From NCBI GenBank assembly GCA_020809705.1, contig CP085831.1:1116001-1180000 (forward strand): a stretch of 64,000 nt of DNA, written 5' to 3'. This document shows positions 1-64,000 of this stretch, piece by piece; the first letter of the stretch is position 1; each line of letters begins with the position of its first letter. The translations under genes and the position numbers were made by a program. This DNA is from Calonectria ilicicola. Its lineage: Eukaryota > Ascomycota > Sordariomycetes > Hypocreales > Nectriaceae. The notes under the pieces were generated by a model. That model worked only from the letters and a program-made list of their open reading frames with translations, was not told the DNA's origin and ran no database searches.

Positions 1-3000
1 AAATAAAAAAAAAAAGTATTTTTAATTACTTAAATAAATATTATTTAATTCTCTTTTTTCTTTAATCTTAATATATTTATTATTTACTTTAATCTTTTAA
101 TTTTTTTTTAATTTTAAAAATTATAAATAAAAATTATTTTATTTAAAATCTTTTATATTTAATTATTATATTAATAATTATAAATATTTATTATAAAATT
201 TATATTTTTTTTTAAATTTTTAAATTTAAATTTATTATATTTTTATATTATTTTTTAAAAATAATTATATTTTTTTTAATAAATTTTTTATTATTTATAT
301 AAAATTTATTTTTATAAAATATTTTAAATTTATATTTAATAAATTTTATTTTTTATAATATTATAAAATTAATAATTTTAATTTTATTATATATATAATA
401 AAAAAATTTATTTTTATTAAGTTTCTTTTAATAATAAATATATTAATTAAATAATAATTATTTATAAAAATTATTATTAATATATTTTTTAATATTTAAA
501 TAATTTAAATTATAATTTTAAAAAATATAATATTTAAATAATATTATATTAAAAATAATAAAAAATATATATTAAAATTTATAATTTTAATAAAAAAAGT
601 TATTTTAAATATAATTATTTAAGTTTTTATAAAAATAATCTTATTATAAAATTAATTATATTTTAATTAAATAAATTATATAATTAAATTTTATTATATT
701 TATTATTATTATAATTTTAAAGCTTTTTTAAAATAAAGCCTATAATTTACTAAAATAATATATTCTTTTTTTTATAATTATAATATATAATATTTATTAA
801 ATCTTTTTAAATAACTTCTAGTTTTATAGATTTTAAGTATATTTTATAAAATATATTATAATATTATATTTTCTTATTTTTAAATAGAAGCTTTTAGTTT
901 TATTTTTTATTAAAATAAAATAAATTATAGTTTCTTTCTTTTTTCTTTTTTTATTATTTAAATTATTATTAGTTGATTTTAATAGTTATTAAGATAAACT
1001 TATAAAGTTTATTTAGTTTATTTACTTTATAAATTTTATTTTTTATTTTATCTTTTAATTTATAATAATAAGTTTTTATAAATATATTATTATTTTAATT
1101 AAATTTTAAGGTTATTTATTAGAATTTTATAAAATAATTAATATATAAATTAATTTACTTTAATTTTTTAAATTTAATTATTATTTTTTTATTTTTATTA
1201 ATAATTTTAAAGTTATTTTTAAGTATTTTTTTAAAGTTTTTTTAATTTTTAAATATATTTTTAATTTTTTATTTTTATTTATTTTTATTATTATTAAAAT
1301 AATCTTTTATAATAAATTTAAAATATTTTATAAAAATAAATTTTATATAAATAATAAAAAATTTATTAAAAAAAAATATAATTATTTTTAAAAAATAATA
1401 TAAAAATATAATAAATTTAAATTTAAAAACTTAAAAAAAATATAAGTTTTATAATAAATATTTATAATTATTAATATAATAATTAAATATAAAAAATTTT
1501 AAATAAAATAATTTAATTTTTAAAATTAAAAAAGAAAATTAAAAGGCTAAAATAAATAATAAATATATTAAGATTAAGGAAAAAAAGAGCTAAATAGTAT
1601 TTATTTAAGTAATTAAAAGTACTTTTTTTTATTTAATATTTAATAATAATATAATTATTAATTAATATTATTTTTTATAATTAAAATTAATCTATTTATA
1701 TATTTATTCTAGATTATAATATATAGAATTATTATAATTTAAATTATTATAATTTAAATTACTATAATTCTTTCTTATATAATCTCTTTAAGGTTAGTTA
1801 GCTTTAATTAGTTTATAATTTCTTTATTATATATAGAATTTAAGGCTTTTTTTATTTTTTAGCTATTAATTTAATATAAATTATAATAATTAATAATAAA
1901 TATAAAAATTAAATAAATAAAATTTGGAAAAAATAAAATTTATTTATAAAAATTAAAAAAAAATATAAAATTAAAAAAAAAATTAAATAATATTTATTTA
2001 AATAATATTATATTAAAAATAATAAAAAACATATATTAAAATTTATAATTTTAATAAATAAAATTATTTTAAATATAATTATTTAAGTTTTTATAAAAAT
2101 AATCTTATTATAAATTAATTATATTTTAATTAAATAAATTATATAATTAAATTTAATTATATTTATTCTTATTATAATTTTAAAGCTTTTTTTAAAATAA
2201 AGTTTATAATTTATTAAAATTATTATTTTTAAATAAAAACTTTATTTTCTTTTATAAAATTTATTATTTTAAAATTTTTTTTATATTTTTAAAAAATAAA
2301 ATAAATTTTAATTTTTAATAATTATATTATTATTAAATATTAAATAAAAAAAAGTACTTTTAATTATTTAAATAAATACTATTTAACTGTCTCTTTTTCT
2401 TAATCTTAGTATTTATATAAGATTTATTTATATATATATAATATTATATCTTTTTTAATTTCTTTTATTTATATTTTTATAAATAAACCTTATTTCTTTT
2501 AAAATTTTAATTATTTAATTCTTATATTTATTACTAATAATATTTATTATAAAACTCTTTTTTATTAAATTTAATATTTTAAATTTAAATTTAAATTTAT
2601 TATATTTTTATATTATTTCTTTTAAAATTTAATATTTTTTTTTAATAAATTTTTAATTATTTATATTAAAATTATTAATATAAATATAAAATATTTAAAA
2701 TTTATATATAATAAATTTTATTTTTTAATAAATTATAAAATTAATTTTAAAATTTATATTTAATTTATTTTTAATAAATTTTAATTAATATTTAATATAT
2801 AATTTAAAAAATAATTATTTATAAAAAGTATTATAAATATATTTTTTAATATTTATATAATTAAAATTATAATTTTAAAGAATATAATATTTAAAAAATA
2901 TTATATTAAAAATAATAAAAAATATATTATAATTTATAATTTTAATAAAAAAAATTATTTTAAATATAATTATTTAAATTTTTATAAAAATAATTTTATT

Positions 3001-3480
3001 ATAAATTAATTATATTTTAATTAAATAAATTATATAATTAAATTTAATTATATTTATTATTATTATAATTTTAAAGCTTTTTTTAAAATAAAATTTATAA
3101 TTTATTAAAATTTTAATTTTATTATTTATATTATTTATTTAATATATTTTTTTATTTTTTTTTAAAATATTTAAAAATATTTTTAATTAATTAAATTAAA
3201 TTTAATTTTATTAATTTAAATTAATTAATTAATATATTTAATTATAAATTTTAATTTTAAAAAATTATTATTAATATAAATAAATATTTTAATTATATAT
3301 ATATGTATTTAAAAATATATATTTAAAACTTTTTTTAATATATATTTAAAAAAGATTTATTTAAATAAAATTTTTTTTTATTATATATAATTTTTAATTA
3401 TTAAGATTTTTTTATTTTATATTATCTTTAAGCTTTAAAATTAATATAAAAATAATTATACTAATTAATATAAAAGTCTA
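1..3480. repeat. RIP-type A+T block of dead repeat copies
   Basis: This stretch is almost wholly A and T, with very few G or C and no usable reading frame. It is built from copies of one sequence. The segment 1-280 recurs inverted at about 1360-1640. The segment 1-760 recurs in direct orientation at about 2313-3110, and 515-760 recurs again at about 1975-2225. The shared stretch around AGCTTTTTTAAAATAAAG is seen at 721, 2185 and 3078. Multicopy DNA stripped of C:G pairs is the usual result of repeat-induced point mutation in Pezizomycotina. The parent element cannot be identified. The left end lies outside the window, and the block stops abruptly near 3480-3500. Confidence 0.85.
1360..1640 (-). 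repeat. Inverted copy of the 1-280 repeat arm
   Basis: Read on the minus strand, this segment follows 1-280 almost base for base, including the run of A before GTACTTTTAATTACTTAAAT and the TTCTTTAATCTTA-like stretch after it. With 1-280 it frames about 1.6 kb as a large inverted repeat. This could be terminal inverted repeats of a dead DNA transposon or two head-to-head copies. The copy near 2313 shares about 30 further bases with its outer edge, so the repeat extends past the arm. Confidence 0.7.
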
Positions 3481-16217: not shown

Positions 16218-16223
16218 ATGGCG

Positions 16224-16286
16224 GGCGATGTATACAACGTCACAGCAAGTGGTACTTCATTCGTCAATGTTGGCGATACTTATGTT
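16224..16286 (+). other. HET-s-type amyloid motif (NLR copy)
   Basis: Codes residues 3-23 of the NLR. Numbered as a 21-residue HET-s repeat, it has V at positions 6, 14 and 16, G at 17, D at 18 and Y at 20. The copies in the two neighbouring genes share this pattern. Confidence 0.7.
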
Positions 16287-18855
16287 TCCGGCTATGATAA
16301 AAAGCGCCAGCTACGCAACCTCCTGTTCCCATACTCAGAGTCTAATAAGACTCTAACGCTGGAATGGGACCACAACCAGGTGAAACAAAAGCATGCTGGC
16401 GAAACCAGCAAGTGGTTACACGCCTCCAAAGAGTTCAGATCTTGGGTGAAAAAGCGGAATAGTCTCTTTTGGATTCACAGAATTGCGGGAAGTGGGAAAA
16501 CTGTATTAAGGTATCAGTAGCAAGGATTATGCCAAGAATTGAAAAACTATAAAGGCTAATGTGTCTAGTTCAACCGTTGTTGACTACCTGCAAAGTTATG
16601 TGGCCGAAAGGGATCAGGTAGCAGCATATTACTTCAACGCCAGGGATGATGAGAAACAGAATGTGTCACGATTGCCCCGGTCTCTTATTCTACAGTTTTT
16701 CCCCGATGAGTGGGAAGCGCCGTCCAAATTTGAGGAGCTATTCAAACAATTCTTTTCACAAACGCCCTCAGATGACGACTTGATGAAGATACTAATAGAG
16801 CTTATCGAAAGCAAAGAACAGGTTTATATTGTTATTGACGCATTGGATGAATGCAGCAACTCATTTCGAAGTGGAGAGGTATCTGAAGTTGAAAAGTTAG
16901 CCAGTTTCATTATCAAAATTGGCGCCATCAAGACATCCAATCTCCATTTTCTAGTTACCAACCGAGACGGAGGCCTATCAGGCAATGTCTCCGAAGCACT
17001 GAACAGTCTGTTTCAGCCAGCTGCATATCATTCCAAAATGAACTTGCGGTCCACGAAAATAAGATCTCAAATTGACATTGATATTGAAACTTTTATTATT
17101 TCCGAGTTGCAGCGCTGGAACAGCCGGAAAGGCCAAAGATCTTGGATTCCATTGAGCCGACTTGAGCAGGGATTGGTCATCGATTCTTTAACAAAAAGAG
17201 CAAATGGAATGTGAGTAAACATACTTCATCTGCCATTATTCCCACGTCAAATCTACCACATACTCATAATACAATGCAGGTTTCGCTTAGCAGCATGTCA
17301 TCTGGACTTGCTCTGAAATAAGGATACTTTCAATGAGGTTAAAAACGCATTGGATGATTTACCTTCAACGTTGGTAGAAATGTACGACCGTATTTTGAAA
17401 GAGATAAAAGATCAAGGACAGATAAAAACAGCCTCGATCCTTCTCCGATGGCTGCTTTACTCCAAGCGTTCACTAAAACTTGGGGAGCTCATGAAACTCA
17501 CCATGGTAAATCTCCAAGGTGATAGTTTTGACCTTGAAGTGGGTGCCAGAGACGCAAGTTACGTATCTGCAACTCTCTCTAGTCTTATTAACATATCCGA
17601 TGACCAGCTGGTCGTGTTTTCGCACCATACTGTCAAGGAATACTTCCAGTTAGAAACGACAGAAAAGGGCTTTTTCGCCCAGCAAGAGGACTCGCAGAAA
17701 TTTCTCGCTAAATGTTGTTTATCATACATGCAATTCTGTGGTCAAAGTGGATCAAAAGGCATGTTGAGACATCTTCAAAGACACGGTTCTCTAGATGAGT
17801 GCATGCTACTGGAGTATGCGTGCAATAACTGGCAGAAACATGTCTCAGAAGCATGAAGAAGCTCCGGGCAGTCAAATATGGCCAATAAATCTAGGCCGTC
17901 ACGTGAAGCTGCAGCATCGCTAGAGGCTCGTAAGGACACAATTATTGGCGATCTATGTCCAGACAATGCACCACAAACGTTTTCAGAACGGACAGGCTCG
18001 GTAAAACTGTGGCTTGACCATGTTCTTGACGGCGACCTTGTGAAAAATCACAAGATTTTGGAGACCCTTTCCTTTCAAGCATACGAGATTTTTGTCAAAT
18101 ACCTTTCAAATATAACGACCTTTGCTTCGCCCAGTATCTTAATAACAGCACTTGAAGGTAGATACGAAGACATGGCCCAGCTCATCATCGAGCATCGCAA
18201 CAATCGCCCCAACTACCTTCAGAAATGTACATTATCGAATTTGGATATCAAACTGCATGCCATCACACATGAATCTCAAATCGACATTTTGCGACTGTTG
18301 TTGGATCATGGGGCGGATGTTAATTTAACGAACTGCTATAGACAGACTTTGCTGCAACTAGCTGTATCTCAAAACAATAAATCAATCGCAAAGCTGTTTA
18401 TAGAACAGGGCGCCGACGTCAATGCGAAAGATTTGGAGGGACGAACAGCCCTGCACATCGCCTCATCACTAGGCCACAGCGCGATTACCCGCCTTTTGCT
18501 ACAAAAAGGAGCCATTGCTAGCACCCAAGACATATGTGGACGGACAGCTCTGGATATTGCGGTGGAAAGGGCAGTAATGCACTTCACATGCCAGATCACT
18601 GAATTTGACCCTCCTAGTGGAATTTTTTATACACCAACCCGGGAAACCCAGACCAACCATGAAGAAACCGCATATATGATCCGAGCGCTATTAGAGAAAG
18701 AAACAGTACACGAGGAAATTGACTATGAAAAAATTTGTTGCCAGGAAAAACTCAGTATTTTGGAAGACCCAAGTCGATTCGAAGGATCCCTCTCAAACCA
18801 AACTCCGAAAATACTTGGAACTTCCAGTTGCCGCAGATTAGTAAGTGTTCGAGAC

Positions 18856-19437
18856 ATTAAGGTGTGTGGAGGAAGACACAACTTCATCGCGCAATTTGTC
18901 GACAATCTAGCTCTGGCCAGGGGATATGTCAAGTTCGGGATGCCATTGCTTGAACAGATATTGGTACATGGTCAGCTTGCCAATTTCACAAACCCAGCTC
19001 CGTCTGGGATATTGAGACTACAAAGATGCCTATTTGACAATAGAGAGACCTTTATCAGGAGAGCAGCGATAACCGATGGGAATGGTCATTTTACAAATTC
19101 GCAGATCAGACAATTGATGATCAGTAATGGCTCTGCTACCTTTCAGTCAAGTGCTCAAATCGGAGATCTGAATCTGATTGAAGGATCCGCTACTTTCATG
19201 GGGGAAGCCAAGATCAATAATCTAAGAGCGAGTGGCGGATCTATCATTTTCATGGCAGCAGCCAGGATTAACAATCTGACAGTGTGTGGTGCATCAGTCA
19301 CTTTTTCAAGATCAGTTGACATAAAAAGCTTACGTATTATTAGAGGATCAGTTCGTTTCTTGTCCTCTGTGCAGACGGAAGAATTATGGGTATCTAGTGG
19401 AATTGTAAATTTCACTCATAACATTCATAAAGAGATA
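18856..19437 (+). repeat. 18-residue beta-solenoid repeats in the NLR
   Basis: Six exact 54-bp coding periods run from 19114 to 19437. Each turn follows L-x4-G-S-x-x-F-x5-I-x-x, for example LRASGGSIIFMAAARINN and LTVCGASVTFSRSVDIKS. About five weaker turns precede them from 18856. Such a pattern predicts a beta-helix with one turn per 18 residues, similar in period to bactofilin-type helices. It sits between ankyrin blocks, where the sensor surface of an NLR would be. Confidence 0.75.
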
Positions 19438-20072
19438 ATGACGCTCCTTCTCAAAGATACGGCGCACGTGGAGGAAGAAGGCTCCAGCAGAATCATTCGA
19501 GAGATAAAGATAGATGATTGGTTATTTGATTTACGAAGGGTTGAACAAATGAGAGATATGGATGAGCGGGGAGGAGTTGTGAAGCTTGATGTCGAGATGA
19601 CAGCCTTGCATTACGCGGTGAGATGCGGACATAGCGCCATGGCGAGCCTTCTTTTAGAAAAAGGAGCCGACCCCAATGTTGCATTACGGTCTAGGAGCAA
19701 AGCTCTTGTCGTGGGGGATCAGATATATGAAGGTCCAGGATGGACACCGCTACATTTGGCGGCTTTTCATAGTCGAGAGTCAATGATCAGATTGCTTCTA
19801 GAGCACAACGCCCGAATGAATATTGAGGACAGAAACGGTCAAACCGCATTGCAAATCGCATTGGCTCAAGCGCAACCGGATATCGTGGCAATTTTGGAAG
19901 ACGAGCTCCATGTTAGAGAGACAATGCTACAGAAAGGCATTCGGAAGGTGAAAGGCACGCTACCTTTTCTTCGGTAATATGGGTACTAGCAGACACTACA
20001 TCAATTATCTAAACCTTTTGCAGCCTTCGCAGCTGCGAGAAACTCCATTCGTAACTCAAGGGGGCTTTTCCC

Positions 20073-20135
20073 ACCATAAGTGTTTCCAACATTAACATGA
20101 GCCTGGTCAGTGACGGAAACCTTCGCGGCTTCATT
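20073..20135 (-). other. HET-s-type amyloid motif r2 of the HET-S-like protein
   Basis: Codes residues 273-293 of the frame, including AHVNVGNTYGG. Hydrophobic residues occupy positions 6, 14 and 16, with Gly17, Asn18 and Tyr20, which fits the beta-solenoid layer pattern of HET-s 262-282. Confidence 0.75.
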
Positions 20136-20177
20136 GCGAGTCTGTTTTACAAATGCGTTCCCACCATCCCATTCACT

Positions 20178-20240
20178 GTGAAAGAAATCACCAATGTTCA
20201 CCGTGCCCTCTTTCATGACTTCGGTGTCCTGGACCGTATT
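20178..20240 (-). other. HET-s-type amyloid motif r1 of the HET-S-like protein
   Basis: Codes residues 238-258, with GTVNIGDFF at its core. It is less hydrophobic at position 6 (Thr) than r2. Two copies in one protein allow a two-layer solenoid per molecule, as in HET-s. Confidence 0.7.
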
Positions 20241-20966
20241 TCTAGCCGTAGATTTGTTCTCAAACATCTTCATGACTTTTTGGGAAATCTGATCAGTAGC
20301 AGAAGCTCTAATCTCGTTCATCTCCTCATCACTCAACTTCAAGTTTTCGATGTTCTGGCGATACTTTTCAAGCTGTTGGTTCTGATTCATGGGAGCAAAG
20401 CCAGTGTTGAGTTGATCCACCAACTTCGTGACAGCATCCGTAGCATCTTCAAGACGAACCCCATCAATACAGTCCCAGACGGTGCGCTTCAAAACACGTG
20501 CGTGCTGATCTTCGTGTTCTCCACGCACCATGTTATGGAGCTTACCTCCAACACTTTTCATCCCGCAGAGTTTGCCCCTCTGGTTGCCTGAGCCAGTGAA
20601 GGGGGGGAGGGAATTTTCCGAAGATGAATCAAGCTCGCATACCCGTTCACTGGTCGTATACGTGGCCAGTTGGACGTTTGCATCCGACAGGTGCTTTCGG
20701 ATAAGCTCCAAAATCGTAAAAGCCTGCTGAGTGGTTTGGTCTATTGGTCGAGTCACAAGGAACTGGTTCAATGAGGCCCCCGACTCATCGATGAGTCCCA
20801 CGGCGGTGGCCCAATTCAATGTCGAATTTTCCAACAATGCGACTTTTATTTGCAAGGTTGTATGGTTGCTGTCGAAATCTCTACCAGTGAGAAAATCGTC
20901 GTAGGACCGGCGCAGATTTTGAAGGCCGCTCGCAAGATCGGTGGTAGTCACAGCTTTTCACGCCAT

Positions 20967-22268
20967 TGTATTTGTGAATCAAACGATGATTGTCTTTGTA
21001 CGTATTGATCTCTGTCGCAGCTACAACTTGTGCTCGAAGTTTGAGTTAAGGTTGCAAAGGATTGCCATTACCATCGTGCAAATTCCCGCAAGTTAAGGAG
21101 GGGGTTCAATGTGCACCGATGTAGACCCGAGCAACCAATTATTTCGACGAAGGAAATCAATGGCGGTAGCTGTGAAACATGATACAATATTGGTTGAATA
21201 ATACAAGTTGGAAATTTGCCCGCGGGGGTTACCCAAATCCAATCGCGAGCGTAAGCTGCAGTGCATTGGTTACACTGATACGAAAATTTTCTTGCGCACT
21301 CATTACCGGAGCACAGTCTCTCATCAGAATAATTCATTGGCCGAATTTACTATTGACTAAGCAAAACCTCCCTTTGGTTTGGTTGGTGTTAATACTCATA
21401 TCACAGGTGGAGAAAGCTCATGCCTTTGTGTATTGCTCATTCAACCATTCTTCATCTTTCGACGATAGACTTATTCTATGTCACTTTCTACGAAGTACAT
21501 AAACGGGAGCCTTGGGTATTTGAATCCGCGTTGTTCGACCGTGACAGGGCCCATGCCGCTGGAGCCCAGGAGCCAAGTTCATGCATTAATACAACTCATT
21601 TTATTTTGGTGTGCAGCTATGATGCATTATTCTTGGGTTCATTGGTGCGGCCTTAGCGGCTTAGTGGCAGAGTCCTCGTGTCAGAAGCTTCGTGTCGTTA
21701 TCTAGCTAACTCAAGCTAACAAGATTAGTAACCAATTTTGCATCTTTGCGTTTTTCACGATATATACCGAAAGCTTGACAAGTTGAACGGCAGACCATTA
21801 TGTATTATTAACTATTGAAGTATTGAAAATTGGCCCTGGCTTGAGCGCGAAGCTGAATCGTTTATATTCAAAGGAAATGGTGCAAGAGTTATTTTGATCA
21901 TAGAACAAAGCAGTCATTTAAACTCAATCGTCCCATTGTTTCGCATTTTCTTTGTACTAGCAAATAAAGATACCAGGGGTCTTTTACCCTTTCTCACACT
22001 ACAGAAAGTACAACAACAAAAAACAAAGGACTATGATTCAGGTGGTTGTTTTCTGCAGTAACATTGTTGAACAGTGACTCAGTCTAGCGACAGCCATAAA
22101 TCTGAGCACGTTCGTACAACTATATAAGAATAGTTGCACCATTTGAAAATTCTTCTTCTTTTAATCCCATCAAGACGAAAAACCTTCCTATTTCTCCACG
22201 GACAAAAGGCTTACAGCAGGATATTCCAAAACTCGGTTACTTTGGATTCTATTTTGACAGCGAGCACC
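20967..22268. other. Shared upstream region of the HET-S-like and DUF4097-like genes
   Basis: About 1.3 kb between divergent genes, so it probably carries promoters for both. A TATATAA box at 22121-22127 lies about 145 bp before the start of the right-hand gene. Other short frames lack support. Confidence 0.4.
22121..22130 (+). promoter_or_regulatory. TATA box of the DUF4097/amyloid-motif gene
   Basis: TATATAAGAA is placed about 145 bp upstream of the ATG at 22269, at a distance usual for fungal promoters with a 5' leader of 100 nt or more. Confidence 0.5.
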
Positions 22269-23573
22269 ATGACTCACCTCCGCACCAAGAAGCATATATT
22301 CCCTATTGGAACCGATCATGAGAAGTTGAAAATCGTCCACAAGTCCATCCCGCAGGCCATTCACGGATCTGAACCAAAGATTTCCCAGCTTAACCGTTTG
22401 ATTCAAGTCAAATTTGCGCAATCATGCGAGGGACAGCCACAGGAACCACAGGTTCAAATTGAATTTATCTCTAGTCTCTCTGGTCTAGGCGTTCATATTA
22501 AGCCATTCATCACCGACGGGCAGACAGGACTAGCCATTATTGACAACGACACGAACTTGGATCACGATTCAGTGGAGAAGCCATCCCTCATGATTAAAAT
22601 CACGATTCAATTGCCAAAAGGAAAGAAAGCAACGTTTTTAGATATTATATCAACGTGTTCGATATATTTCCAATCTTCCTTTTCGGGTGCAATGTTTCAA
22701 AACATCTCATTGCATTCTGACAGAAATATTTTATGCGCCAAGCTCGACGACCCTCAATCTGAGTATGACGCCCCGGAAAACTTCACTGCAAAGACAACTG
22801 GTGGAGGCATCGAAGGGTCGCTCCAAATTCGAGGTCGCTGCCATCTGGAGACTGATCATGGAGCCATTAACGGTGTGTTTAAGAATTTGTATCATGATCT
22901 TCCAACAAAGAGCGAAATTACGGCCAAGACGAACGATGGCGACATCACAGGAGAATTTCATCTTGTACATCAATGTCATCTCGAGACCAATAGTGGATTG
23001 ATCAACTCGGTGATTGTGAGGCCGCGTTGCCACCTGGGCCTTGAAAGCGAGCTGGTAACCGAAAACAATGATGGAGGTACTAATTTGAGAATCCAAGAGC
23101 TCGTCCACTCTGGTTCTGATGGCTCCCTTTGCCGCAACCGCGCTTGCGCCACGATCGAAGATGACGACAAGGTGTCTAACGAAAAGCACTTATCCCACAA
23201 GGGCTTCAAGACACGCCACGAGTCCACCACCGGGTCTATAAATGTTACTTTCCCGGATACATGGAAAGATTCATTTAGAAAAGTGGAAAATTACAACTTC
23301 ATCGCAGGTTCTTGCCAAAAAACAATTCTTTTCGGTGAGAAAATGGTTTCAGAGGAACCAAATCCGAAGAGAAGAAAAAGTTCAGGTTTTGATAGTGATT
23401 ATATGAGTGATAACTCTGGTAATTCCGTTTTCAGGGGCATACAATGTGGAAACAATCATGCTGAGGGTATTTTTGTTTCTGAGAATGCTTTTGTCCATGT
23501 GGGGAATGTCTATGGTGACGAGTCGCCATTTATGCGTCTGTTGAAAAAGCGGCAACGTCAGAATAGGGAGTAA
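22269..23573 (+). CDS. DUF4097-like beta-repeat protein with C-terminal amyloid motif
   Basis: Intact single-exon frame of 434 residues from the first good ATG (ACCATGACT). Residues about 170-270 contain beta-strand repeats resembling fungal DUF4097/adhesin-type proteins: FTAKTTGGGIEGS, CHLETDHGAIN, ITAKTNDGDITGE, CHLETNSGLIN. A further STTGSINVTFPDTW lies near residue 320. A basic patch PKRRKSS could be a nuclear signal. Residues 396-416 form a HET-s-type motif with AFVHVGNVYGDESP, matching both motifs of the HET-S-like protein and the N-terminus of the NLR. The placement suggests recruitment by, or seeding of, the same amyloid. I do not know this architecture from described fungal systems. 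It could be an alternative executor, an adaptor or a decoy; there is no visible signal peptide, transmembrane segment or catalytic motif. Confidence 0.7.
   Translation: MTHLRTKKHIFPIGTDHEKLKIVHKSIPQAIHGSEPKISQLNRLIQVKFAQSCEGQPQEPQVQIEFISSLSGLGVHIKPFITDGQTGLAIIDNDTNLDHDSVEKPSLMIKITIQLPKGKKATFLDIISTCSIYFQSSFSGAMFQNISLHSDRNILCAKLDDPQSEYDAPENFTAKTTGGGIEGSLQIRGRCHLETDHGAINGVFKNLYHDLPTKSEITAKTNDGDITGEFHLVHQCHLETNSGLINSVIVRPRCHLGLESELVTENNDGGTNLRIQELVHSGSDGSLCRNRACATIEDDDKVSNEKHLSHKGFKTRHESTTGSINVTFPDTWKDSFRKVENYNFIAGSCQKTILFGEKMVSEEPNPKRRKSSGFDSDYMSDNSGNSVFRGIQCGNNHAEGIFVSENAFVHVGNVYGDESPFMRLLKKRQRQNRE
23454..23516 (+). other. HET-s-type amyloid motif (third-gene copy)
   Basis: Codes residues 396-416. 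Hydrophobic residues fall at positions 6, 14 and 16, with Gly17, Asn18, Tyr20 and Gly21. It continues into DESPF, paralleling GKSPL after r2 of the HET-S-like protein. Confidence 0.7.
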
Positions 23574-44628: not shown

Positions 44629-45156
44629 ACGGCACAATGTAAAAACTGACGTGTTTTTCTTTCTTCCAATTTCAACTGACTTCCAGTTGCTTGCTATTAA
44701 CCCAAGCCCGATGCTACCACTTGCTTGTATTCATTTTCATCGGCTGACATTTCTTAGTCAACTTCATAAATGAAAATTCCCTCTCAAGCGTAGCCAATTG
44801 TCGATATTCATATTAAAATAATATGTCGATATTCAGATGGCTAATCGCCACGTGATTTCCATCCCTGTCAGCACGCCTGAGGCCAATACTAACTCGTGAG
44901 AGATTACGTGTGTGGCGTTTGATATGACACGGAATGCGACAATACATTAGCTTAAGGTTTGCTAACCGCTTTCCCCTCACTTGGCTTTGGCGTCTACTTT
45001 GTAATTATCAACGAGGTATTTACTGTTGTTTGACCGAATGAACCAAGCTGGCCCAAATAACAAACTATTGTCTCAGCGACTCTCGAAACAGTCAGTCAGT
45101 CTCTGGCTACAATTTCTGCCATCTTAGTGTTTATAATTTTCCAGTTTTTATAAAAG
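44629..45156 (+). promoter_or_regulatory. Upstream region of the TPR-CHAT gene
   Basis: About 530 bp with no gene. GTCGATATTCA occurs twice near 44800 and 44825. The start codon of the next gene follows a TTTTTATAAAAG stretch. Confidence 0.3.
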
Positions 45157-48100
45157 ATGAGCGCCGAAAATGCTTCTGGGCTAGTTGTTTATTCCATGGG
45201 TATTGAACTGGATCTTATCCCTCACTGCATCCCAGACACTGATAGTCCTTTAGAAGATAGCCACAATCCTGAATCAGCGCCCAATATTCTCGATCATGCT
45301 ATCAAAAATTATGAAAAGTTCTTCAAATCCTTACCAATCGACGACCCAAATCGACCACAAATATGCTATGAGTATCTGATGAGACTTGGAGAACGATATC
45401 AAATATCAGACTCCATGGAGCATCTTAGGGAAGCAATTTCGCAATATGAAAAGGCACTACCGATAATACCTCTCGATTTTAAGCATCGCTACTTGCTATA
45501 TTACACGCACGCTCTTCTTCTTTCGTATAGAATAAATGCCATAAATGCCCCAGGTGATCATGATGCAGCGGTCTCAGCCGCAACCGAGGCGGTCCGCTGC
45601 ATGCCTGCGGAATGTCTGGTGGGAGGTGCTATGTTCAATAAGCTTGCATCATGTCTTGGCCAAAGATACATGGCTAATGGTAACATGGCCGATCTAAACA
45701 GCGCAATCAAAAATTCTGAACAAGCCATAACCTTCACAAACAGTCCAAATCTCCCAATATTTGCGAATAATCTTGGTCTGAACTTGGGATATAAGTACAA
45801 CAGAACTGGAGATATAAGCCTACTACAAAGCGGCATTCAACGGATTGAAGAGGCAATCAAATTAGTCGGGCCAGATTCAGTAACTGACCCCAATTTGTCC
45901 CTGTTTCAAAATAACTTGGGGCTCCTTCTTCAGGACCGATATGTCAGGACTGGGGCGGTCAATGACCTTGAAGAAGCCATCAGTGCACTTGAAAGTTCTG
46001 TCAGTACCACGCCATCCAATGACACAGTTGGCCTAGCGATTCGATCAAACAATCTTAGTACATGCCTCTCCAAGAAATTTTCAAGGAACCAAGATCTGTC
46101 TTTACTCGAAAAGGCTATTCTTACCGAGAAGACTGCCATAAATAATCTCCGTAAAGAGCACCCAGATCACCAACTCTACTTAAATAATCTTGGCAACTTA
46201 TTTGGGGACAAATATACAACTACGAAACAGCAACTTGATCTGGATGAATCAATCAGATGCTATCAAGATGCAATTAGATTCACCAATTTATATCAGCCCG
46301 AGCACCCGAATCTTCCGAAATTCTTGAACAATCTTGCAGGAGGCCTGAAGGATAGATTCACTCTGAAGAGGGAGAGTGCTGATTTGGATGGTGCTATTAG
46401 CAATCTTCATGAGGCCGTAGCAAAAACTCCAGAAAATCATTCAGATCGGGCAGAGAGGCTGTGCAACCTTGGTTTGCTGCTTTTCGAAAGATCTGCCAAT
46501 CCAATCAACTCAATCAATCTTGAACAAGCTGTATCTATTCTACAGGAAGCGCTAAAATGTCAGAATACATCCCCAATAACTCGCATTAAATCTGGGAAAG
46601 TCCTCCACGCCTGTTTTGTTCTACTGTCACAATGGGAGGATGCCTATCAAGCTCTCGACGCGACCATACGGCTAATCCCCAACTTAGCCCCCAAGTCGCT
46701 GATACACACTGACAAGCAACATGTTCTGAAACAAGTGGTTGGACTGGCGTCCACCGCAACAGCCGCCGCTTTGACGGCTGGCAAAGACGCGTATACCGCT
46801 CTGGCGCTTCTGGAAATTGGGAGAAGTGTGATAGCCACGTCACTACAGGACATGCGCGCCGATGTGCAAGATCTCAAAAATCAGCATATCGATCTAGCTG
46901 AGCGCTTCATCCAGCTACGAGATAAGCTTGATACACCAGCGTGGCGCCGTGAAGACGCGAGTGCACACTCTTGGCAAGATGAGGCAAGTCGGCGCTATGA
47001 CGCGCAAACCGAGTTCGATAGTCTCCTTGAAGAAATTCGCCGCCACCCAGGCTTTGAAGACTTTTTAGCTTCTCCGACGGAAAAATTAATGAAGCAAGCG
47101 GCACATCTTGGCCCTATTGTTGTGATTAACGTGAGTGATTTGACTTGCGACGCAATTATCATACAACAACACGGCATTTCTTCGCTAGCCCTACCTAAAT
47201 TGAATCGAGCGGCAATCCGAGATAAGAGCAAAGGCATATCTAGAAATATCAAAAGTATCCTGGAATGGCTTTGGGACAGTTCTGTATACCCTGTTTTGGA
47301 CTTTTTAGGCATGACTCAAGTGCCTATCGACGGTATCTTGCCTCGAATTTGGTGGATCCCCACTGGAGCCTTAAGTAAATTTCCCCTTCATGCGGCCGGG
47401 CGCTACGGGAGAAACCAATGTAATAATGCACTGAGCCTCGTCAGGTCATCTTATAGCACTTCTATCAGGGCTATCATTTATGGCAGACGACAAGTTCTGC
47501 ACAAAGATGCACCCCCAGCATCAGGGAAAGTGATGCTTGTCAACATGGAGAAAACACCTGCTCACCCTAACCTCCCTTACGCGTCAAAAGAGGTCTCAGA
47601 ACTACGCAGCCTCTTTGACCTAATGAAAATTAAAATCGAAGAGACTCCGCCGTTCAAAAAGAACGTGTTAGAAGGCCTACCACTTTCTACTATCTTTCAT
47701 TTCGCTGGCCATGGCCACACCCACCAATCTGACCCTTCACAGAGCTACCTCTTGCTACAGGACTGGAAAACTGACAAGCTTGCTATTGCAGATCTTCTGG
47801 AAATAAATATTCGCGAGCGATCTCCCTTTCTTGCTTATTTGTCTGCTTGTGAGACAGGCAGCATCAAGGACAATGCACTGGACGATGAAGGCTTGCATCT
47901 GATTGGGGCCTTTCAATTGGCAGGATTTCGGCACATGATTAGAACTTTGTGGGAGGTCTCCGATAGATCATGCTTCGAGATGTCAAAAGTGACATATGAG
48001 ACCATTGTCAAGGAAGACATGACTGATGAGTCCGTCTGTGAAGGTCTACATAGAGCTGCTATGGCTCTATGCAACAATCCGCTCGGAATAAAAAGATCTA

Positions 48101-48219
48101 GTCGGAGCAAACCGGTCGTTCCCCGCAATCTCTTCATTTGTGATGAGGATGACGAGGAAAATGAAGAGCAGGGTTATACAAATTTTACCTGGGTTCCATA
48201 TGCTCATTATGGAGTATAA
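45157..48219 (+). CDS. TPR-CHAT caspase-like protease
   Basis: Intact single-exon protein of 1020 residues. Residues about 40-470 are tetratricopeptide repeats with NNLG and EEAI-type helices (NNLGLLLQDRYVRTG; LNNLGNLFGDKY). A linker helix region carries TALALLEIGRSVIATSLQDM, common in fungal TPR-CHAT proteins. The C-terminal CHAT domain is a clan CD cysteine protease with the dyad His852 (FHFAGHGH) and Cys898 (AYLSACETG), followed by the usual GLHLIGAFQLAGFRHMIRTL. In bacteria TPR-CHAT proteases cleave gasdermins after activation through the TPRs; fungal gasdermins can also lie beside CHAT genes. No gasdermin-like gene is visible within this window. Cytosolic; the trigger and substrate are unknown. 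Confidence 0.88.
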   Translation: MSAENASGLVVYSMGIELDLIPHCIPDTDSPLEDSHNPESAPNILDHAIKNYEKFFKSLPIDDPNRPQICYEYLMRLGERYQISDSMEHLREAISQYEKALPIIPLDFKHRYLLYYTHALLLSYRINAINAPGDHDAAVSAATEAVRCMPAECLVGGAMFNKLASCLGQRYMANGNMADLNSAIKNSEQAITFTNSPNLPIFANNLGLNLGYKYNRTGDISLLQSGIQRIEEAIKLVGPDSVTDPNLSLFQNNLGLLLQDRYVRTGAVNDLEEAISALESSVSTTPSNDTVGLAIRSNNLSTCLSKKFSRNQDLSLLEKAILTEKTAINNLRKEHPDHQLYLNNLGNLFGDKYTTTKQQLDLDESIRCYQDAIRFTNLYQPEHPNLPKFLNNLAGGLKDRFTLKRESADLDGAISNLHEAVAKTPENHSDRAERLCNLGLLLFERSANPINSINLEQAVSILQEALKCQNTSPITRIKSGKVLHACFVLLSQWEDAYQALDATIRLIPNLAPKSLIHTDKQHVLKQVVGLASTATAAALTAGKDAYTALALLEIGRSVIATSLQDMRADVQDLKNQHIDLAERFIQLRDKLDTPAWRREDASAHSWQDEASRRYDAQTEFDSLLEEIRRHPGFEDFLASPTEKLMKQAAHLGPIVVINVSDLTCDAIIIQQHGISSLALPKLNRAAIRDKSKGISRNIKSILEWLWDSSVYPVLDFLGMTQVPIDGILPRIWWIPTGALSKFPLHAAGRYGRNQCNNALSLVRSSYSTSIRAIIYGRRQVLHKDAPPASGKVMLVNMEKTPAHPNLPYASKEVSELRSLFDLMKIKIEETPPFKKNVLEGLPLSTIFHFAGHGHTHQSDPSQSYLLLQDWKTDKLAIADLLEINIRERSPFLAYLSACETGSIKDNALDDEGLHLIGAFQLAGFRHMIRTLWEVSDRSCFEMSKVTYETIVKEDMTDESVCEGLHRAAMALCNNPLGIKRSSRSKPVVPRNLFICDEDDEENEEQGYTNFTWVPYAHYGV

Positions 48220-60000: not shown

Positions 60001-60425
60001 GGGAAAACCTCGGGTTTGAGAATGGTGTGCAGGACTAAGTAACGCTTATTGAGCGAGTTTATCTGAGACAGAAGATTGAAATAGCTTCACATTGTGTTTT
60101 TTACCATTCGTTAAATAAGCTTCTAAACATTTTAACAAATGATGCTGCGTCGCGGTACATACGATGATCTCTTGTCGACACTATACTCAAGCTTTTTGCA
60201 ACCCTGACCTGTGGGCGGTGGCTGATGCGCGCCAGGGGGGGAGCTCACTAAGGTAGACTAAAGCACCCCCAGCCAAATATCTCTTGAAGCCTTCCCGCTT
60301 TTCTCAAAAAAAATGTACGCTGGCCATTTTTGATCTTTTAATTTACAGTTTCCAAAGTTCCTTTTTTCTGGAGACGGCAGTATCCTATCCCGAACAACAT
60401 CAGGTTCGACAAATCAGGCTCGAGC
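57055..60425. other. Long gene-poor region
   Basis: About 3.4 kb with no supported gene. It includes homopolymer runs (A near 57970, T near 58795) and many overlapping short frames without motifs. It may hold old transposon debris, but no ends or coding remains could be recognised. The promoter of the second NLR lies at the right end. Confidence 0.4.
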
Positions 60426-63400
60426 ATGCCTCCTATCTGTGAAGATGAAGGTACCGACAGTCACATATCTACAGAATGGCAACTGTCTGAGGCAGAAACG
60501 GCCGCATCATCTGCTGCAGGGCTTTCAGGCACATCCGTGATGAGCACTGAACACATTCAGACTCTTGCTAAGCCAATTACGTCCGCTAGTGATACGGACT
60601 TAACACTCAGCTTGGCCAAATTGGCTCTTGGGGAGTCATCAGCGTCTCACCGACGTGAAAGACTATTGAACACCCTTCCATTTGCCTCGATGGGTAAATG
60701 TTTGACGGCGATCAGGTCTGCTCGCCCTACATGCAAGTGGTTCCTTCAACTCCCCGGGTATCTAAAATGGCTTCACCCCCAAAGCCACTCAGAGCATCAT
60801 GGCATTTTGTGGGTTAGAGGCAAACCAGGCAGCGGCAAATCAACCTACATGAAGTTTTTATATGAGCAAATGCAAGAAACACAGCATCTTCCGAATAACT
60901 TCAGTGTCTACTTCTTCTTCAACGCCGGAGGAAAAGAGCTTGAGAAATCTGCTTGGGGAATGTACCGATCCCTACTTTCTCAATTGCTTGTGGGCTACAC
61001 TGATCTTCAACAAGTTCTCAATGCATTTGAGGCAATGTCAGGAAGTCCTCTTGAATGCCCCAATGTAAAGGCATTGCAAGCCTTTTTTACAATGCAGTCT
61101 CTGGCCTTGGTCATCGTTCTCTCACGTGTTTTATTGATGCTCTTGACGCTTGCGAAACCCAAGCAGCTATAAAAATAGTCAAGGAATTAGAAGACTTGGC
61201 GGATCACTGCTCAATCAAAGGCTTGAACCTCCGAATTTGCTTTTCTACTCGCCATTATCCCCATTTTAATACGAAACGCGGTCTGCAAATTACCTTAGAA
61301 GATCAACAAGATCACTTCAATGCCATGAACAATTACATTCAGACTCACCTCTTGGTCAGCGGCACACCATCTAGTATGGAATTGGGGTCTCAAATTCGTG
61401 CGAGAGCTTCTGGGATGTTTCTATGGGTTGTATTGGCTATGGACACACTAAAAAGATCGGGTGGAAATGATGGATTAGACAAGCTATCCAAAAAGCTTAA
61501 GGACTTTATCGCTGATATCTTTAGACGAGATGATGAAAATATGGAGTAATTCTTTCATTCTGTCCTCTGGGTCCTGTGTGCAAGACGGAAGTTCAGACCG
61601 GATGAATACTTTCATGCCGTTTGGTCTGGGCTGTTATTGAAGATTCCACAACCTAAAATTCCGGATCTCACAACGCCAAACGCTAGTGAACGCATCAGCA
61701 CCTTTGTTACCAAGACATCGAAGGGGATCGTCGAAATCTCAACAGAAGATCGACCAATTATACAATTTATACATAGGAGTGTCGCAGACTATCTCGATAG
61801 AGAGAAAGGCCTTTGCACCCAGTGGCCCGAATTCGGACCTTATTGGCGCGACTTTGGAAACGAGATACTCAAGCAAATATGCCACAAATATCTCAACCAC
61901 CCTTCAATTACCGCGACAATAACCGATCTATCATCAAGTACGAGACCCTCACGTCTGAGCGATGTTGTCAAACGATACCCCTTTTTGAAGTATGCCAGCC
62001 AGAACATACTATATCATGCCAATGCCGCAGCGAATTCAATACCCCAGGATGAGTTTTTAAGAGAATTCTCTCTCTCAAGCTGGGTCACCCTCGTGAATCT
62101 ATTCGAAAAATCCGCAGATCATCGATATCCCCAAAACGCAAGTCTATCATATATTCTTGCGCACCGAGGTCATGCTGCCCTGGTTCATACAAGACTAAGA
62201 TCGGGGGATGATCTTTCGGTCACTTCAAAAGAGGTATTCAGAGATCCGCTGCTTGACTCATTGGCCAATAGACAGAAAGGCGGTGCTGTCGCTCTCCCGA
62301 GGCTACCATTGAATCTGCATGGCACATACAAAGCTTCTGAAAGCTCGAGCCACCAGAAAAGTCGAATGTATAAAAAGCGAATTGCGATATCTTGGGCTGC
62401 AGAAAACAACCAAAAAGAAATGCTCAGTTTATTGATGGAGAGAGGAATTTATGTTGATGAAGTTGATGGAGAGGGCAGAACAGCACTGTCAAGAGCCTTG
62501 GAACACGGGCATCATGCAATAACCAAACTCCTCATTGACGGAGGTGCCAATATTGATTTCTGTGATAAAATCGGCCGAACATCCCTCTTTTGGGCCGCTA
62601 AGGGTGGTGATGAAGCAATTGTAGAATTTCTTCTTCGCTGCGGTGCCAAAGCCAGTTGTGTTGATAGGAGCGGGAAAACACCTCTGTTTTGCGCAGCTGT
62701 TCATGGCTCTGAAGCCATAGGGAAACTCCTCATTGATAGAGGTGTTGATGTTAACCTTAGAGAAAAGATGGGACGAACACCCATTTTCTGGGCTGCAAAG
62801 CATGGCCATAAAGAATTCATCAAACTCCTACTTCGCTACGGTGCCGAAGTCAATTGCTTTGAAAATAATGGACAATCACCTCTCTTTTGGGCGGCGAAGA
62901 ATGGCCACACAGCAGTGGCAAAGCTCCTTATTAATAAGGGCATCGATCCGAATTTTAGTGATCACACTGGACGGACACCTCTCTTCTGGGCCGCGAAGTA
63001 TGGGCAAGAAGACTTTGTCAAAATTCTCCTTCGTCATGGTGCCGATGTCAAATATATTGATAGTAGTGGACGAACGCCTCTTTTTTGGGCCGCCAGGCAT
63101 GGCTACAAAGATATAGTGAGGATATTTATTAACAACGGTGCCAAGGTTAATTGCATCGATTACGATGGACAATCACCCCTTTTTTGGGCTGCAAGGCACG
63201 GACATGAACACACAGCGCGGCTCCTCCTTCAATGCGGCGCGGATGTCAACTGTGTTGATTACAGTGGCCAAATTCCTCTGTCTTGGGCAACAAAACATGG
63301 CCATAACGCTACCATCAGACTTCTAATTAGCAGGGGCTCCAATCTCAATTGGGTAGATAGAAATGGATTAACGTCTCTCCATTGGGTATCTGCGAATCTC

Positions 63401-64000
63401 CAGAAAGCGACAGAAGGGCATCATCATGAACACAAGAAAATACAGCCAATGAACACTAATCCTGGCAAAGATTCCGAAGATGCCTTCACATACTCCGCCA
63501 CTACTATAACTAGTAATCAGACTATTTCCAAAGAGGAAGACATCTCTCAGCCCACACAAGGGCTAATGGAGGAAGATTTTGACGATGCACAGACTGAGTA
63601 TTTAACGGAGTCGAGCGACACACACACAAGACCACAAACCTTTATTGCAGAGTTAGCTATGTGTCTATTCAACGAAATACGCTCATTAGAAACAGATACA
63701 GAGACTCAAATACGAGTTGCGGAAATTTTACCTGAGCTGCTTAGAGCTTTTTCACTGCGAGTTGGATATTCCTCTGCCAAAACTACCCCTTCCCAAAAGC
63801 ACCGAGAGCTTATGGTTTTAGTACATAAGCACAGAAAGTGAGTAGACGACCCCTTTGATCACAATTCCTTCTCTGCAGCCAATTATAATTTCAAGATATT
63901 TGTCTAATACTATGAAAATATAGTGAAATCGCTAGAACCTTTGCTAGTACAATACTCAATCAAGAACAAAGCAAGAAGACCATTGGACCTGACCCTGAGC
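60426..64000 (+). pseudogene. Second NACHT-ankyrin NLR, frameshifted, continues past the edge
   Basis: STAND-type protein. Residues about 75-110 hold the pre-NACHT block (RRERLLNTLPFASM; TCKWFLQLPGYLKWL), Walker A is RGKPGSGKST, and Walker B is LTCFIDALDACE. The frame shifts in a T6 run at 61083-61088: upstream reads NVKALQAFF, and YNAVSGLGHRSLTCF continues in the minus-one frame. A TAA at 61547-61549 interrupts DDENME/FFHSVLWVLCARR; the frame is otherwise open on both sides. Exon 61637-63837 then carries ten 33-residue ankyrin repeats (62366-63390). A GTGAGT...TATAG intron (63838-63923) leads to an exon running off the window. The N-terminal 70 residues are Ser/Thr/Ala rich and lack the amyloid motif of the first NLR. 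Probably a pseudogene unless the T run is a sequence error and the stop is read through. Confidence 0.78.
62366..63390 (+). repeat. Ten near-identical 33-residue ankyrin repeats
   Basis: Tandem 99-bp units with the core G(R/Q)(T/S)PLFWAA(K/R)HGH. They alternate strictly between a type with LLI-x2-G and a type with LLLRxGA, so the true duplication unit appears to be 198 bp. High internal identity is typical of recently amplified NLR sensor repeats. Confidence 0.8.

Follow-up and report, generated by a model that had tools for sequence, protein, structure and literature searches.

Does a block of three adjacent genes, in which a receptor, a HET-S-like protein and a third protein carry related short motifs, represent a HET-s-type amyloid signalling cluster, and could its third gene add an output to the familiar receptor-executor pair? 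The block lies in a 64-kb stretch of contig 7 (C7:1116001-1180000; hereafter the window) of genome assembly G000 (69.9 Mb, 12 contigs) and comprises, in this order, a gene for a nucleotide-binding oligomerization domain-like receptor (NLR; forward strand), a HET-S-like gene (reverse strand) and a third gene (forward strand). An earlier note on this DNA had placed four copies of a 21-residue motif in the three genes, and all four were located: r0 at the N-terminus of the NLR, R1 and R2 towards the C-terminus of the HET-S-like protein, and one in the C-terminal part of the third protein. The locus is probably a cluster built on HET-s-related amyloid motifs (HRAM), HRAM1-like in type and with a possible new second output, whose receptor and executor alleles are null in this genome. 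All genomic comparisons, both of relatives and of the motif repertoire, were made within this one genome, from one individual. In window coordinates, the features are as follows.

16218..19977, forward strand: NLR gene (exons 16218-16510, 16569-17210 and 17280-19977; two introns placed by GT..AG and frame)
16218..16280, forward strand: r0 motif, NLR residues 1-21
17314..17316, forward strand: in-frame TGA at NLR codon 324, introns removed
17854..17856, forward strand: in-frame TGA at NLR codon 504, introns removed
19075..19424, forward strand: about six copies of an 18-residue repeat in the NLR ankyrin region, found by self-alignment
20001..20966, reverse strand: HET-S-like gene (ATG 20964-20966; terminal TGA 20001-20003)
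20079..20141, reverse strand: R2 motif, 14 residues downstream of R1
20184..20246, reverse strand: R1 motif; aligns in register with repeat one in the structure of the HET-s prion domain
20322..20906, reverse strand: HeLo domain (PF14479, 47 bits, E 3.4e-12; PDB 2wvo, E 3.8e-4)
20958..20960, reverse strand: in-frame TGA at HET-S-like codon 3
20967..22268, no strand: intergenic stretch of 1302 bp between the HET-S-like and third genes
22269..23573, forward strand: third gene, an open frame of 434 codons
22275..23417, forward strand: residues 3-383 of the third protein, which form its body, with 45-residue repeats and two tandem relatives
23448..23510, forward strand: R2-like motif of HET-s type at residues 394-414 of the third protein

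The four motifs stand apart from the remainder of the window. A loose pattern, modelled on the published HRAM rules and relaxed so as to admit all four, has exactly four matches in the six-frame translation of the window, compared to a mean of 0.005 and a maximum of 1 in 200 residue shuffles. An independent matrix was built from 22 motifs of other loci of the genome, chosen by the Pfam family HET-s_218-289 (PF11558) and including none of the window's own motifs; by this matrix the four rank first to fourth among 44,408 window peptides (R2: 34.5; third motif: 27.9; r0: 19.3; R1: 4.2; next peptide: 3.6). When each motif was left out in turn, r0, R2 and the third motif each came directly behind the three training motifs. 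Furthermore, a profile of all four, compared against 177,635 PDB sequences, places HET-s first and second with both repeats in register (E 0.014 and 0.028; next match: E 0.15).

Individual matches to PF11558 are of graded strength. The HET-S-like protein scores 32.4 bits, just above the curated cut-off of 32.2. The N-terminal 44 residues of the NLR have PF17108 (E 0.031) and PF11558 (E 0.068; 13.6 bits) as their top Pfam matches, both under cut-off, and the sole Pfam match of the complete third protein is to PF11558 (model positions 44-65 at residues 395-416; 15.6 bits, E 0.016), likewise under cut-off, a single motif covering roughly one third of that model. Taken alone, the C-terminal 61 residues of this protein reach 19.2 bits (E 0.0012) at the same model positions, again under cut-off. 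For both termini the top Pfam matches are HET-s families, and after shuffling 0/10 match any such family. Similarity to HET-s/HRAM profiles, the absence of which the earlier note had named as one of its refuters, was found by both independent Pfam and PDB profiles.

The motifs also follow the published HRAM rule, which specifies Gly19 and hydrophobic residues at positions 5, 8, 10, 16 and 18, with threonine sometimes at position 10 (PMC4518210). Gly19 and a valine or isoleucine at positions 16 and 18 are present in all four motifs, and position 5 is valine or alanine; the exceptions are a threonine at position 8 of R1 and an alanine at position 10 of r0. Asn3, a mark of HRAM1, occurs in 3/4 motifs, r0 having Gly3 instead. 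The 14-residue loop between R1 and R2 falls inside the published range of 6 to 18 residues (PMC4518210). At positions 7 and 12 the charges of R1 are opposite to those of R2, and an acidic residue gives the third motif the R2-type charge at position 12. Since these charges match the published anti-correlation between paired repeats (PMC4518210), the third motif could stand in place of an R2.

The domains attached to the first two sets of motifs are those of a receptor and an executor. The N-terminal part of the NLR matches NPHP3_N (E 1.6e-34) and NACHT (E 6.7e-8), and its C-terminal part, which ends at a TAA at codon 1211, matches ankyrin repeats (E 6.9e-39). The 18-residue repeats within the latter region (self-alignment score of 150 at offset 18, compared to a maximum of 44 in 100 shuffles) are putatively solenoid-like, judging by their periodicity. 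Among the other genome matches listed for the exon concerned, none extends beyond residue 252, leaving the repeat stretch without a relative (63 of 901 candidates scored), and this stretch could be an integrated sensor part. The HeLo match of the HET-S-like protein lies well above the curated cut-off of 23.2 bits, and a PDB search with the protein returned the small s/S HeLo structures (E 3.8e-4 to 1.1e-3), with the prion domain matched weakly (E 0.21). When only the last 94 residues were used, both prion-domain repeats were recovered in register (E 0.039 and 0.041), followed by an unrelated Ig-like protein (E 0.061). The NLR and HET-S-like genes are arranged tail to tail with 23 bp between them, and the HET-S-like and third genes head to head, with the 1302-bp stretch separating their divergent starts as a possible shared promoter. 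The one-plus-two arrangement that had been likened to the NWD2/HET-S pair, with a single N-terminal motif in the NLR and two C-terminal motifs in the HET-S-like protein, is borne out.

The NLR and HET-S-like frames are, however, interrupted by three TGA codons, and the extended circuit envisaged in the earlier note is probably not a working one in this individual. Two genome relatives align with the NLR up to the residue just before the stop at codon 504 (query residue 179). The start codon of the HET-S-like gene agrees with the HeLo model, in which the 18th residue past the stop is aligned with model position 19, and, by eye, the start of another HeLo protein of the genome (L008); the stop at codon 3 therefore lies inside the expected protein. 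As all three stops are TGA, an altered genetic code was considered and rejected, because 43 other genome matches of one NLR exon contain no internal stops, indicating that TGA is read as a stop in this genome. Internal stops occur in 3/26 HeLo places of the genome, all three including TGA, and may reflect introns or broken genes. Repeat-induced point mutation was likewise rejected as the source of the stops, the dinucleotide ratios of the trio genes being ordinary and like those of the remaining window, and alternative starts or introns that would skip the stops were rejected by eye, no in-frame splice sites being available. The third gene is the only intact member of the trio. The simplest reading of the three stops is that of recent null alleles: the NLR and HET-S-like genes are probably null alleles in the sequenced individual, in which the circuit is most likely inactive with its third gene still intact.

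The same stops could be taken to indicate a decayed locus, in which the NLR and HET-S-like genes are ordinary pseudogenes, the cluster is functionless in the species and the third motif is a relic. Besides the three TGA codons in two genes, the broken appearance of another NLR in the window (60342-63838) agrees with this. Bar three codons, however, the two frames run open for some 1,530 codons and remain recognisable as members of their families, they bear no signature of repeat-induced mutation, and the third gene is uninterrupted. An inactive receptor also has precedent, given that nwd2 of Podospora is inactivated in all het-s isolates analysed and is kept in het-S strains (PMC3321046). We consider decay of the whole locus unlikely, and prefer an amyloid cluster with null receptor and executor alleles.

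What the third gene would contribute to such a cluster depends on its protein body and on the kinship of its motif. Two tandem frames elsewhere on the contig (G000:C7:2738406-2739983 and 2741041-2742249) share the body, with 125/364 and 123/331 identical residues (34-37%), and their homology to it stops at residues 383 and 365, ahead of the motif, which starts at residue 394. The best scores of the independent matrix within the 10-kb stretches of the two relatives are 0.6 and 3.0, as compared to 27.9 for the third motif. Because both body relatives lack it, the motif was apparently either gained in the third protein or lost in both relatives. The body itself contains 45-residue repeats (score of 102, compared to a maximum of 42 in 100 shuffles), and has no Pfam match at E 10; one of its relatives matches DUF7330 at E 0.071, under cut-off. 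AlphaFold2 models of the third protein made without an alignment have a mean predicted local distance difference test score of 34.4 and 35.5, the first model has no PDB match at E 0.001 by Foldseek (best: 0.081), and a three-member profile was likewise without a PDB match at E 1. The regular strands that the first, poor model shows at residues 171-258, together with the 45-residue repeats, give a hint that the body may be a beta-solenoid. By eye, no NLR or HeLo frame was found in the 20 kb around the two relatives. An NLR-type frame with a P-loop and ankyrin repeats, and no visible HET-s motif, lies about 10 kb past them (C7:2752373-2754943; by eye), and its proximity may be due to chance, because NLRs are frequent in the genome.

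In a comparison of 25 motifs, the third motif is nearest to the neighbouring R2 (10/24 residues) and to the second motif of a ubiquitin-like protein (10/24; 14/30 with the tail), the latter being the closest when the tail is counted. Its similarity to the neighbouring R2 runs past the motif (G-N-x-Y-G-x-x-S-P; 12/30 residues). A recent DNA duplication of the motif inside the cluster is unsupported, the third motif and R2 being identical at 40/72 bases. When the genome was searched with the C-terminal 61 residues of the third protein, the sole match besides the query was the ubiquitin-like protein (E 0.05); sensitivity was low, as just two candidates passed the first look and the neighbouring R2 was not among them.

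Its affinity to R2-type motifs leaves room for a regulatory role, whereby the single motif would stack on R1 and cap or buffer the HET-S-like fibril; alternatively, the third protein may be one guarded by the NLR. The presence of one motif only, nearest to those of R2 type, and the head-to-head position beside the HET-S-like gene agree with such a role. Single C-terminal motifs are, however, carried by PNP_UDP effectors of an HRAM-like class (PMC9815663), which indicates that one motif also allows for an effector. A regulator or guarded protein, which we regard as rather unlikely, is compatible with the cluster reading.

A reading in which the third motif resembles HET-s by chance or convergence, and its gene is a neighbour unrelated to the other two, is more improbable still. 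The weak statistics of the single motif and the two motif-free relatives of the body speak for coincidence. Against it stand the second rank among the window peptides by a matrix free of window motifs, the similarity to R2 and to the ubiquitin-like protein beyond the motif itself, and its C-terminal position beside the HET-S-like gene. Finally, a live circuit whose stops are bypassed by readthrough or A-to-I mRNA editing is very unlikely, for although the frames remain open past the stops and premature stop correction is known in fungi, the correction so far described concerns UAG codons in which a U precedes the edited base (PMC11156358), all three stops here are UGA, and, by eye, splicing around them would break the frame or delete conserved sequence.

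Several results weigh against the reading of the locus as an HRAM1-like cluster with a second output. Stops interrupt 2/3 of the trio genes. R1 is only marginal by the independent matrix and, when left out, ranks 8th, four other peptides scoring above it besides the three motifs used for training. No HET-s protein is recovered from the PDB at E 10 by a profile restricted to r0 and the third motif, and in the PF11558 search of the whole genome the third motif reaches an E-value of only 0.197. The motif of the NLR is nearer to the r0 motifs of two other NLRs (12/24 and 10/24 identical residues) than to the neighbouring R2 (7/24), which is 7th of 25 by score, and R2 of the HET-S-like protein is nearer to R2 of L008 than to the third motif. 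As such, the motif kinships do not bear out a circuit private to these genes. Lastly, the best 15-residue hydropathy at the HeLo N-terminus is 0.1, as compared to 1.75, 2.25 and 0.44 in three other HeLo proteins of the genome. Because this N-terminus lacks the hydrophobic stretch found in two of them, pore formation by the HET-S-like protein, as implied by its proposed role of executor, is uncertain; a cytotoxic-dead HET-s variant is on record (PMC12881547).

In a working allele, a ligand would cause the NLR to oligomerise, whereupon its r0 motifs could fold into a triangular beta-solenoid and, by analogy with NWD2/HET-S, template R1-R2 of the HET-S-like protein. Either independently or via R1-R2, r0 would also template the R2-like motif of the third protein and so recruit its repeat-built domain as a second output. 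Of this scheme, the motifs and their HET-s register, the HeLo and NACHT/ankyrin domains, the order of the genes and the occurrence of the third protein's body elsewhere without a motif are shown by the sequence, and we infer that the motifs fold as amyloid and seed one another, that activation follows, and what the third protein does. If the third protein is recruited by the same fold, this would extend HET-s-type outputs beyond membrane lysis and nucleoside phosphorylase.

The wider repertoire of the genome bears on whether such signalling is confined to pairs. PF11558 has 23 matching places in the genome at E 10, the third motif included, and the classes given here cover 20/23. Double repeats occur in 5/23, namely the HeLo proteins of the window, L007, L008 and L010, and the ubiquitin-like protein L011. 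The latter (G000:C7:1860710-1860892; L028:3616-4113) has two C-terminal HET-s-type motifs and matches ubiquitin (E 0.0033), Ubiquitin_2 (E 0.0035) and HET-s_218-289 (E 1.7e-6; 28.3 bits), all under cut-offs, and is possibly another undescribed motif carrier. Ten places are N-termini of NACHT NLRs, with domain matches above Pfam cut-offs in 10/10 scanned. An NLR trace is limited to the first frame in L018 and L019 (NPHP3_N; E 0.018 and 0.015, respectively), with an NLR-exon match within about 1 kb downstream of L018, and a Pfam scan of the frames of L023 and L013 gave no NLR match. The frame that holds the L013 motif (G000:C4:977904-977969) close to its N-terminus is short and includes a hydrophobic stretch of membrane-like character.

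Receptors therefore outnumber executors, with at least ten further HET-s-motif NACHT NLRs compared to four double-motif HeLo proteins, and most of the double-motif HeLo genes lack an adjacent NLR. By eye, no NLR frame is present in the 9-kb stretches around L007, L008, L010 and L011, and 0/10 of the larger neighbouring frames match an NLR family. A 940-residue frame with NLR-exon and ankyrin matches (C2:1.867-1.868 Mb) lies about 14 kb from L007, and an ankyrin frame about 16 kb from L011. Among the five double-motif genes, only the HET-S-like gene of the window has an NLR within about 4 kb. We tentatively raise the idea, which we hold to be somewhat less probable than not, of a HET-s-type hub rather than a death pair, in which a HeLo protein, the third-gene domain and a ubiquitin-like protein are all served by one family of receptor motifs, some outputs do not kill, and the motif is captured by simple C-terminal addition. 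Whether many HET-s-motif NLRs of one genome share few effectors is a testable question, and a body that occurs both with the motif and without it provides a natural comparison for the capture of a prion tag.

Across the window, Pfam domains include NACHT/ankyrin, HeLo, fungal transcription factor and fungal rhodopsin matches, in genes with GT..AG introns, which is the character of a filamentous fungus. A scan of the window for tRNA genes and Rfam families gave no match, and matches in an NCBIfam scan were all far under cut-offs. Positions 1-3400 form an extremely AT-rich block (G+C of 3.9%, zero CpG), which may be the kind of trace that repeat-induced mutation leaves. A TPR-CHAT protein is encoded at 45154-48216 (CHAT: E 6.8e-27), CHAT being a caspase-like domain. 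The second NACHT/ankyrin NLR, at 60342-63838, seems to be broken, its frame changing around position 61100 and meeting a TAA codon at 61547-61549.

The closest known system is NWD2/HET-S of Podospora anserina (HRAM1), which shares the adjacent genes for an NLR with one N-terminal motif and a HeLo protein with two C-terminal motifs, the motif register, and Asn3 in R1 and R2. Here, however, the NLR carries ankyrin rather than WD repeats, the two genes are convergent rather than divergent, r0 has Gly3, the HeLo N-terminus is not hydrophobic, a third motif protein and in-frame stops are present, and the NLR motif is not closest to those of its partner. Three-gene clusters of an NLR with two motif partners are found in the PP cluster PNT1/HELLP/SBP of Chaetomium (PMC5485727) and the sigma cluster HET-eN/SesA/SesB of Nectria (PMC3321046), which differ in belonging to other motif families and, as described there, in having a lipase-type second partner where the locus here has a domain without a Pfam match. 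Of the extended circuit proposed earlier, what stands is that the third gene bears a motif near to the neighbouring R2; its three-gene layout is already known from these clusters. The HRAM-like motif (NLR12) on PNP_UDP effectors resembles that of the third protein in that it is HET-s-related, occurs once, at the C-terminus, and belongs to a protein of other than HeLo type, and differs in domain and motif class, with no HeLo neighbour mentioned in the portion of the source available (PMC9815663). The two tandem relatives at C7:2.74 Mb share the body and lack the motif. In the available text of the relevant literature, the described partners carrying HET-s motifs are of HeLo type and PNP_UDP (PMC4518210, PMC3321046, PMC9815663, PMC5485727, PMC12261475, PMC12258605, PMC7889193, PMC12881547, PMC11156358). 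Titles and abstracts, with subscription papers mostly uncovered, yielded no HET-s third gene, ubiquitin-like partner or DUF7330/DUF4097 associated with HET-s. A HET-s-motif trio may nevertheless already be in print, because a review mentions, in general terms, that an NLR may be clustered with a single execution gene or with several (PMC7889193). A three-gene amyloid cluster as such is thus known from the PP and sigma systems, and what appears new here is the HET-s motif on the domain of the third protein, where it looks like a tag on a domain not described before.

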